Below are positions 16,826-19,497 of a DNA stretch of 40,333 nucleotides, in pieces. The notes under the pieces are model-generated. The model made no database searches. It saw only the letters and a program-made list of their open reading frames with translations, and was not told where the DNA came from. The DNA lies in contig MGTJ01000129.1 of the NCBI GenBank assembly GCA_001799395.1, positions 1 to 40,333 on the forward strand, in the 5' to 3' direction. Each line of letters opens with the position of its first letter. The first letter of the stretch is position 1. Made by a program: the position numbers and the translations under genes. Origin of the DNA: Desulfobacterales bacterium RIFOXYA12_FULL_46_15 (GTDB lineage Bacteria > Desulfobacterota > Desulfobacteria > Desulfobacterales > Desulfobacteraceae).

Positions 16826-17839
16826 TCAGGATCGGTATCCATAAGGGTTTTTCTTCTGCCACTGCCATGTATCTTTGCACATGTCATAAAGTGTCTTTTC
16901 AGCCTTCCAGCCGAGTTCCTCAAGGGCTTTTGACGGGTCGGCCCAGCAGGCGGCAACATCCCCGGGGCGTCTTGCGGTAATTTTATAAGGGATTTTTTTA
17001 CCGCTGGCAGCTTCAAATCCTTTGATCATTTCAAGGACGGAATACCCTCTGCCGGTGCCAAGGTTGTACATAACCAGTCCCGGATGCGTAAAGAGTTTGG
17101 GAAGGGTCCTGATATGGCCTTTTGCAAGATCGACCACATGGATATAATCCCTGACGCCGGTTCCATCCGGAGTGTCATAATCATTCCCAAATACATTGAC
17201 TTCCGGCAAGGCCCCCACGGCTACCCCTGAAATATAGGGCATGAGATTGTTTGGAATGCCGGAGGGGTCTTCTCCGATTTCACCGCTCATATGGGCTCCT
17301 ACAGGGTTGAAATATCGCAAAAGGGCAATATTCCAGTCTTGATCGGAATGGTAAAGATCCTGGAGAATTTCTTCAATCATGAGTTTTGTCCGGCCATAAG
17401 GATTTGTGGCCGACAGGGGAAAGTCCTCTTTTATGGGGAGGGATGCAGGGGCGCCGTAAACCGTGGCGGAAGATGAAAATACAATGTTTTTTACACCCAT
17501 ATCCATCATGACTTTAAGAAGGTTCAAGGTTCCGGTAATATTGTTATGATAATATTTCAATGGAATGGATACGGATTCCCCTACAGCCTTTAATCCTGCA
17601 AAATGAATAACCGCATCGATCTTATGACCGGCGAAGATATCGGCAATGCTTTTTTTATCCATCAGATCTGTTTTGTAAAACACAACCGGCCTTCCTGTAA
17701 TCCGCCTTATCCGGTTCAAGGATTCTTCCGAGCTGTTGGAGAGATTATCAAGCACAACAACCTCATGGTTATCATTTAAAAGCTCAACACATGTGTGGCT
17801 TCCGATATAACCTGCACCACCGGTAACCAGAATTTTCAT
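16826..17839 (-). CDS. galE: UDP-glucose 4-epimerase
   Basis: This 337-residue protein is of normal length for GalE. The NAD-binding GGAGYIGSH motif is at residues 7-15, the catalytic Ser lies in FSSSATVYG and the Tyr-x3-Lys pair in NPYGRTK. It interconverts UDP-glucose and UDP-galactose in the cytoplasm, supplying galactose for surface polysaccharides. AAGGA precedes the ATG. It is probably the first gene of a unit with the HEAT/receiver and ATP-grasp genes 34 bases downstream. Confidence 0.94.
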
Positions 17840-18051
17840 AAACAGTCCTTACAGGCTTTAGTTTTAAACGGTTTGTAAGTTAATATAAAAAAAAGGTCAC
17901 GGCATATCCCACAGTGCCTTTATTCTTTTTTAAAGAAGAGGTTAACATGGACAGGAATCCGGGATCAAGTTTTTTATTGTCTATACGGGCCGTAATGAAA
18001 GGACGGCAATCAGCCATGGCGCCTCTTTCAGACAAAACAGGTTTCAAAGCA

Positions 18052-18080
18052 TTGACAGACGGCATGGGTGTGTTTAGAAT
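18052..18080 (+). promoter_or_regulatory. Sigma70 promoter of the HesB-like selenoprotein gene
   Basis: TTGACA (18052-18057), a 17-base spacer and TAGAAT (18075-18080) make a near-consensus sigma70 promoter. Transcription would start near 18087, giving a leader of about 50 bases before the ATG at 18137. Its quality supports that the TGA-interrupted gene downstream is live. Confidence 0.7.
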
Positions 18081-18136
18081 TATGGCATTCAGGCAGAGAT
18101 CTTCCTGAAAAAATTAAATATAAGGAGAGATATAAA

Positions 18137-18454
18137 ATGATCGATTTGACAGATCCTGCAAAAACGCAGATTGATGACTATTTCCAGGGAAGGACACCGA
18201 CCCCGATTCGGATTTTTCTTAATTCAGGCGGCTGAGGTGGCCCATCTCTTGCCATGGCTCTGGACGAGCCTAAAGATACGGATGATACCTTTGATGTAAA
18301 AGGCCTGAAATTTGTTGTTGACAAAGAATTCATGGAAAAAGCGGAGACAATAAAAATTGATTTTACAGGTATGGGATTTCACCTTGATTCCAACCTTGAG
18401 CTTGGACAATCCGGTTGCGGTAGCTGCGGTTCCGGCGGCTCCTGTGGGGATTGA
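18137..18454 (+). CDS. HesB/IscA-like selenoprotein (in-frame TGA = selenocysteine)
   Basis: The frame from ATG 18137 (AAGGAG at 18122-18127, nine-base spacing) to TGA 18452-18454 encodes 105 residues if the internal TGA at 18233-18235 is read as selenocysteine (codon 33). The local text LNSGG-U-GGPSLAMALDEP matches the A-type Fe-S scaffold/carrier family (IscA, SufA, HesB), where the U position is the first cluster-binding Cys. The C-terminus ends in a Cys-rich tail (Cys94, Cys97, Cys103), as in the known HesB-like selenoprotein family. It has its own promoter and terminator. A conventional gene finder would keep only the fragment from about 18254. Role inferred: Fe-S or redox/selenium chemistry in the cytoplasm. 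Confidence 0.88.
18236..18259 (+). promoter_or_regulatory. Candidate bacterial SECIS hairpin
   Basis: Directly after the TGA, CCAT (18242-18245) pairs with ATGG (18254-18257) around an eight-base loop. GG (18239-18240) can extend the stem against CT (18258-18259) with one bulged base. Bacterial SECIS elements lie just 3' of the UGA inside the coding region and are variable, so this is suggestive only; no folding was run. Confidence 0.35.
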
Positions 18455-18469
18455 CATTCCTTTGGTTTT

Positions 18470-18510
18470 GAAAGGGTAGGTATAATATCTTACCCTTTCA
18501 CCCCCTTTTT
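18470..18510 (+). terminator. Rho-independent terminator after the selenoprotein gene
   Basis: A perfect nine-base-pair stem, GAAAGGGTA (18470-18478) with TACCCTTTC (18491-18499), is followed by ACCCCC and a T-tract (18506-18510). It lies 15 bases after the stop codon, so the selenoprotein gene is probably a single-gene transcript. Confidence 0.8.
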
Positions 18511-18562
18511 GATTTTGCCTGCCTGAAGAAAGTCCCATCCGTGGCTTGACCGTGACCAGCCA

Positions 18563-18588
18563 TCATGATAGCCTGATATTTATCATGA
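18563..18588. repeat. Perfect 8-bp inverted repeat upstream of the FliL-like lipoprotein gene
   Basis: TCATGATA (18563-18570) and TATCATGA (18581-18588) are perfect inverted arms separated by ten bases, 28 bases before the ATG. It may be an operator or an mRNA hairpin. The arm with its flank (TATCATGAAA) recurs at 20141-20150 upstream of lptF. Confidence 0.4.
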
Positions 18589-18615
18589 AAATTTAAGAAT
18601 TGTCAGGATGCCATA

Positions 18616-19497
18616 ATGAAAAAGCGCTCCATTGGTCTGTTTATCGCATTTGCCGGTATTGTTACTGCAATTTTTATCACCAGTTGCGGAGAAAAAAAGA
18701 AATCCCAGGCCGAGCTTACCGTAGGAAACTGGTCGCAAGAGAAAAACAGGGCCTATGTCCTTTTGTATGCCAATTCAAAAGGAGAATGGAATTCGTCTGT
18801 CAAAGTTTCCGAGGCAACCTCCAAAGTCGTCAAGACCAAGGGAAAAGCCAAAGGCCTGTGGCGCATTGAAAAAAACCAGATGATTTTTACGGTTATGGAA
18901 TCGGATATCGAAGATGTCTGGGAAAAGAACAGTACTGTATTTTATGATATCCTTGACCTGACGGAAAATAAAATGCAGCTCAAGGATGAACAAGGGGACG
19001 TGACGGCCTGGTCCAGAACTAAAATAGGAAAATCCACTGAATCAGAAGCTGATCTTGCCCTTGTCATACCCATGGCCCCGGTTGTCGTGAATTTAAACAA
19101 AGACAGGTCAAATGATAAAGACAGATACCTGTGCCTGAAAATGAATTTTATCCTCAAAGAACTGATGCCGGGGCAGCAAGTCCCTCCTGTCCACCCCAAG
19201 GTTGAGGATGCAATCGTCATTTTTTTCAGTTCCCTTGTATTTGAGGATGTAAAGGATTTTGACGGCATCAGGAGTCAGGGCCAAAAGCTGGTCAATATAT
19301 TAAATCCGTATATGGAGGGAATGATAAAGGAAGTTGCAATCGAAAATGTAATTGTTGCAACTGAAATTGAAAAAGTTGAAGAATTTTTAATTGAACATAC
19401 CCCGCCGGCAGATTCTGCCCCTGAAGAAGGTAAACAGGCAAAGGATGAAAAAAAGAAAAAAGACGGCAAAGAAAAACCAAAGGATAAAAAGGGTTAG
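18616..19497 (+). CDS. Lipoprotein with C-terminal FliL-like domain
   Basis: This 293-residue protein begins with a lipoprotein signal (lipobox FITSC, Cys24). Residues about 30-140 form a small beta-rich domain in which LTVGNWSQEK and TKGKAKGLWRIEKNQMIFTV suggest a lipocalin-like barrel. Residues about 150-260 look FliL-like: VVNLNKDRSNDKDRYLCLKMNFILKE, then VEDAIVIFFSSLVFEDVKDFDGI. The tail is Lys/Glu/Asp-rich and likely disordered. FliL proteins surround flagellar stators, but canonical FliL has a transmembrane helix rather than a lipid anchor and sits among fli genes; none are here. AGGA precedes the ATG. Predicted to be membrane-anchored in the periplasm; function open. Confidence 0.7.
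   Translation: MKKRSIGLFIAFAGIVTAIFITSCGEKKKSQAELTVGNWSQEKNRAYVLLYANSKGEWNSSVKVSEATSKVVKTKGKAKGLWRIEKNQMIFTVMESDIEDVWEKNSTVFYDILDLTENKMQLKDEQGDVTAWSRTKIGKSTESEADLALVIPMAPVVVNLNKDRSNDKDRYLCLKMNFILKELMPGQQVPPVHPKVEDAIVIFFSSLVFEDVKDFDGIRSQGQKLVNILNPYMEGMIKEVAIENVIVATEIEKVEEFLIEHTPPADSAPEEGKQAKDEKKKKDGKEKPKDKKG

Follow-up and report, generated by a model that had tools for sequence, protein, structure and literature searches.

An IscA/HesB-type gene with an in-frame TGA, probably read as selenocysteine, in a Desulfobacterales bacterium

HesB-like selenoproteins and the gene at 18137-18454

HesB-like proteins containing selenocysteine (Sec) were tabulated for Syntrophobacter, Desulfovibrio, Geobacter and others in a 2006 survey, which, in its treatment of these proteins, counted two Sec-to-Cys events and illustrated a SECIS remnant in a Desulfitobacterium Cys form (PMC1794560). 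They are also included in reviews of 2022 (PMC9312934) and 2026 (PMC13188914), the latter assigning the profile TIGR01911 to the HesB-like family. A HesB-like selenoprotein of Methanococcus maripaludis came to light through mutagenesis and 75Se labelling, and its function is called not clear in the passage concerned (PMC11097638). Both the selenoproteins and the switches from Sec to Cys were already in print by 2006, and the gene described here is not new in kind.

The gene was found in a contig of Desulfobacterales bacterium RIFOXYA12_FULL_46_15 (MGTJ01000129.1), assigned to the Desulfobacteraceae, whose members are anaerobic sulfate reducers. The window, i.e. the whole stretch of DNA analysed, is 40,333 bp long, and the features assigned in it are as follows.

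18052..18080, forward strand: promoter-like site TTGACA-17-TAGAAT, count of such sites not above chance
18122..18129, forward strand: Shine-Dalgarno-like AAGGAGAG 5' of the ATG, from the sequence
18137..18454, forward strand: putative IscA/HesB-type selenoprotein gene, 105 residues with Sec at position 33, from the frame, profile matches and homolog alignment
18233..18235, forward strand: TGA probably read as Sec, aligned with the first conserved Cys of A-type proteins
18256..18270, forward strand: candidate SECIS-like hairpin GGCUC-UGGAC-GAGCC with GG in the apical loop, from RNAalifold and codon bias
18416..18445, forward strand: codons of the C-terminal Cys94, Cys97 and Cys103
18469..18500, forward strand: terminator-like stem-loop of 12 pairs with a T tail

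With its single in-frame TGA decoded, the frame translates into the 105 residues MIDLTDPAK...LNSGG-U-GGPSLAMALDEP...SGCGSCGSGGSCGD, the final codon being a second TGA at 18452-18454. The original prediction had placed the internal TGA exactly at the first conserved Cys of an A-type protein, and both the frame and the homolog alignment bear this out. The ribosome-binding site and the downstream terminator that it described were likewise recovered, terminator-like sites in the region numbering three against a mean of 0.9 in shuffled sequences. Its strong promoter is not established, as the site matches at 11 of 12 positions and the scan returned two sites against a mean of 1.6 in shuffles. As it also foresaw, standard ORF rules yield only a fragment, the 66-aa remainder 18254-18454 being the sole entry in the mechanical ORF list. 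This is in keeping with the TGA being a real stop, either in a broken A-type gene or ahead of a gene starting at 18254, a reading considered below.

With Cys placed at the TGA, the read-through protein scored 114.2 bits on NF038090 (IscA_HesB_Se; cut-off 85), matching positions 1-101 of the 101 in the profile. Sec falls in a conserved Cys column, and there was no difference from this family among the features tested. The 66-aa fragment alone reached 63 bits, below the cut-off, and all 25 members of alignment A1 matched NF038090 at E 0.001. The cut-off of the A-type superfamily model PF01521 was also exceeded (30.4 bits against 26.3, again with Cys at the TGA). The predicted fold and the place of the first conserved Cys are shared with the A-type carriers IscA, SufA and ErpA; however, the protein carries Sec for Cys, tails in its family are mostly CxxC, and its scores lie far under the three equivalog cut-offs (32.8 against 150.6, 32.3 against 136.2 and 23.5 against 117 bits, respectively). 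The HesB-like selenoproteins of TIGR01911 (HesB_rel_seleno) belong to the same superfamily and have their Sec in a UxGP motif (PMC13188914), which here reads U-G-G-P, but the TIGR01911 score of 32.2 bits is below the cut-off of 66.35. Across 59 genomes of the phylum, 25 matched TIGR01911 at E 0.001 and only one did so over the cut-off.

The earlier assignment to the HesB-like selenoprotein family stands in that a known selenoprotein family is matched, but the closest model is NF038090 and TIGR01911 falls short. As judged by sequence comparison, the gene almost certainly encodes a selenoprotein of the NF038090 subfamily of A-type proteins. It is an ordinary member of an already named family, and the surprise is smaller than the original prediction supposed. 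Neither the name nor the number of NF038090 was found in a literature search, and the main text of the 2026 review (PMC13188914) does not include it; papers use the term 'HesB-like', so the subfamily may have been published.

The nearest solved structures by sequence are AQ_1857 (1nwb) and Escherichia coli IscA (1s98, 1r94). An AlphaFold model, computed from the protein with Cys for Sec together with 22 homologs, all but one of which are Cys forms, has a mean pLDDT of 82, with residues 90-102 of the Cys tail under 50. A structure search with this model returned IscA 1s98 (Z 12.3, 91 residues aligned, rmsd 2.9) as well as SufA and DsrR. An IscA/SufA fold is predicted.

Conservation and decoding of the TGA

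In a class-wide profile search, NF038090 was matched in 260 of 291 genomes, 254 of them over the cut-off. No match was found in the other 31, so the gene is not strictly essential unless these are assembly gaps. Two of the 31 belong to the same genus (G145 and G223, 90 and 92% complete), in which either sequence is missing or the gene was really lost. The genome studied here (4.74 Mb, 96% complete) has a single NF038090-type gene. By hand count, 137 of the 150 matches listed contain exactly one internal TGA and 13 contain none, the position of the TGA being verified only for those members that were extracted.

Extraction covered 90 loci, drawn from the own locus, the 30 best matches and 60 further chosen regions (L094 duplicates L031), and yielded 92 distinct members, two loci having a second copy. 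All 13 Cys rows were included deliberately, and the ratio of Sec to Cys in this set is therefore no frequency. The residue at the site is Sec or Cys in 92 of 92; the original prediction would have been refuted by homologs all having a different residue or a gap there. The motif pattern used was Sec or Cys followed by x-G-P, so that other residues would be flagged as lacking the motif. Only L066, a Cys member with a one-residue shift, was flagged and dropped, leaving 91 aligned members, of which 79 have TGA, nine TGC and three TGT. Ala8, Arg25, Asp43, Asp49 and Phe81 are invariant among them, and most retain the tail cysteines: Cys94 in 87 members, Cys97 in 89 and Cys103 in 87. A separate contig scan used a Cys-codon pattern and is uninformative on the frequency of Sec; of its 22 loci, 21 gave matched stretches without a stop, and the match in L128 is a Sec copy.

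The genome encodes the machinery for Sec incorporation for which the original prediction had suggested looking, and whose absence it had named as a refutation. A tRNA-Sec scoring 76 bits exceeded the cut-off, unlike ten weaker matches, and was also called by ARAGORN as tRNA-SeC with anticodon tca; SelB (341 bits), SelA (609) and SelD (373) each passed their cut-offs. Among 14 control genomes, the cut-offs were passed by tRNA-Sec in five, SelB in two, SelA in one and SelD in two. Weaker matches were common there, and only matches over the cut-offs were therefore counted. An in-frame TGA also interrupts selD of the same genome (locus L020 on contig C57, where the gene lies on the minus strand); its context reads GAG-U-ASK, and a predicted hairpin follows it. 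SelD is unrelated to the IscA/HesB-type protein and is likely a second selenoprotein.

A candidate SECIS element was obtained when the region past the TGA was folded, as had also been proposed. For the Sec genes, RNAalifold of the 63 bases from the TGA gave one structure, of five pairs at +23 to +37, which corresponds to 18256-18270 and begins 20 bases past the TGA. All 79 Sec genes form at least four of the pairs, 74 of them the full five, while none of the 12 Cys genes reaches four. The loop is UGGAY throughout the Sec genes (UGGAU in 67, UGGAC in 12). As the residues encoded by the hairpin are partly conserved in the Cys proteins too, codon choice is more telling. Of the 79 Sec genes, 76 use GCT for Ala41, a codon found at 81 of the 457 other Ala positions in those genes, and 75 use GAG for Glu44, a codon found at 174 of the 516 other Glu positions; in the 12 Cys genes, each of these two codons is used at its site three times. 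The sequences are related, and neither the hairpin nor the codon counts represent independent events. In the gene itself, 51 bases fold at -19.1 kcal/mol (z -2.31), with 5 of 200 shuffles equally good. Rfam RF00031 (SECIS_1), a model of eukaryotic SECIS elements, had no match in this or the 14 control genomes and is uninformative on bacterial SECIS; a permissive Rfam scan of 17600-18700 gave four matches, all far under the gathering scores.

Both parts of the gene are under purifying selection, the median dN/dS being 0.13 before and 0.08 after the TGA (12 same-genus sequences, 66 pairs each, 60 codons after the TGA). Together with the identically placed TGA in 79 extracted Sec relatives across the class, the hairpin kept in TGA genes and absent from Cys genes, and the full Sec machinery, this makes a real stop very improbable, whatever the ORF rules yield. 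The conserved TGA, the hairpin tied to it and the low dN/dS speak against both a pseudogene and a start at 18254, and these two candidates were rejected.

If general suppression inserted a different amino acid at the TGA, for instance Cys or Trp, this would agree with the existence of homologs with Cys at the site. However, the genome encodes SelB and a tRNA-Sec with anticodon tca, and the hairpin with GG in its loop accompanies the TGA. The frame itself ends in TGA, where 10 of 12 same-genus sequences (this one included) end in TAA or TAG, which makes general readthrough unlikely, and suppression has scarcely any probability as an explanation. Decoding as Sec is preferred: SelB carrying Sec-tRNA would bind the candidate hairpin at 18256-18270, and the UGA at 18233 would, on the basis of comparison, be decoded as Sec to give the 105-residue protein.

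Sec and Cys copies and their neighbours

A tree of the 91 members needs four changes between Sec and Cys labels, three of which are forced by well supported branches, though the alignment has few positions and many forks are unresolved. On a provisional root, the tree is read as showing that Sec is probably old and that Cys arose at least three times.

A Sec copy with one internal TGA accompanies a Cys copy in seven of eight named genomes chosen for their Cys copy, namely Desulfospira joergensenii, Desulfoluna limicola, Desulfoluna spongiiphila, Desulfamplus magnetovallimortis, Desulfobacter latus, a Desulforapulum bin and a Desulfobacula bin. The eighth, Desulfobacter vibrioformis, has two Cys copies only. 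At L031 (1323-2092) and L070 (1560-2388), the Cys copy is followed by the Sec copy on one strand. The tail of the Cys paralog in L070 is rich in His and Cys, which hints at metal binding.

A conserved operon was sought in the 89 loci of the 91 members, with neighbour frames clustered by single linkage, and no universal neighbour was found. Upstream, macro-domain-like genes occur in 31 of 89 loci, zinc-ribbon genes in 24 and relatives of the galE-like gene of this locus in 16, and relatives of its FliL-like lipoprotein lie downstream in 20. The Pfam check covered a single member from either of the macro and zinc-ribbon clusters, plus the two neighbours in this locus. These macro-domain-like and zinc-ribbon genes lie upstream in loci of other families of the order, e.g. 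L106 and L110. The frame 3' of the gene, at 18616-19497, is lipoprotein-like with a FliL domain match.

Possible function

Sec33 would take the place of the first conserved Cys of IscA, and Cys94, Cys97 and Cys103 lie on a tail that is unordered in the model. Sec33 and the tail cysteines would together bind iron or an Fe-S cluster, and the protein would serve as A-type carrier in an anaerobic lineage that yielded no canonical IscA, SufA or ErpA; such a role is given roughly an even chance. PF01521 had no match in the search of this genome, and one of 38 relatives (this genome included) exceeded the cut-off (26.6 against 26.3 bits). Three of the 38 relatives reached E 0.001, two of these carrying TGA, and nine of the 14 control genomes had a match. 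The read-through TGA lowers the PF01521 score of the Sec protein itself, so that this search informs on canonical carriers only. The lack of a match in this genome fits a statement in a 2009 study that A-type carriers are absent in many Delta-Proteobacteria (PMC2682760). The Sec protein may be the sole A-type protein of the cell.

Canonical A-type carriers have CxC as their tail motif. Only five of the 91 members have CxC in the tail, whereas 79 have CxxC (two have both, nine neither), which counts against a carrier, as does the disorder of the tail in the model, where ligand geometry is conjecture. The M. maripaludis disruption mutant was unimpaired in nitrogen fixation, according to an unpublished observation cited in PMC11097638, and thus lends no support to an Fe-S role.

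The same selenoprotein might instead use Sec33 as a redox catalyst, in which case a substrate would oxidise Sec33, a tail Cys would resolve it as a selenenylsulfide and CxxC would bring about release. The predominance of CxxC over CxC and the three to five tail Cys in 91 of 91 members agree with such chemistry, and the 2026 review (PMC13188914), in the passage concerned, deems redox roles likely for most uncharacterised selenoproteins. However, the structural matches of the model are proteins of Fe-S biogenesis, none of the matches listed being thioredoxin-like, and the His-rich tail of one Cys paralog suggests metal binding. A selenol redox enzyme is the less probable of the two, though it retains an appreciable share, and a metal or Fe-S carrier with a Sec ligand is favoured at about even probability.

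The Sec A-type protein could, tentatively, have replaced the canonical carriers in this anaerobic class, so that iron or Fe-S would be trafficked via a selenium ligand, the Cys duplicates serving as selenium-independent stand-ins. The gene is of value as part of a large natural series in which Sec is the common form (137 of the 150 matches listed) and changes between Sec and Cys are repeated. With Sec/Cys pairs from one organism, the role of selenium in an Fe-S-carrier-like protein would become testable.
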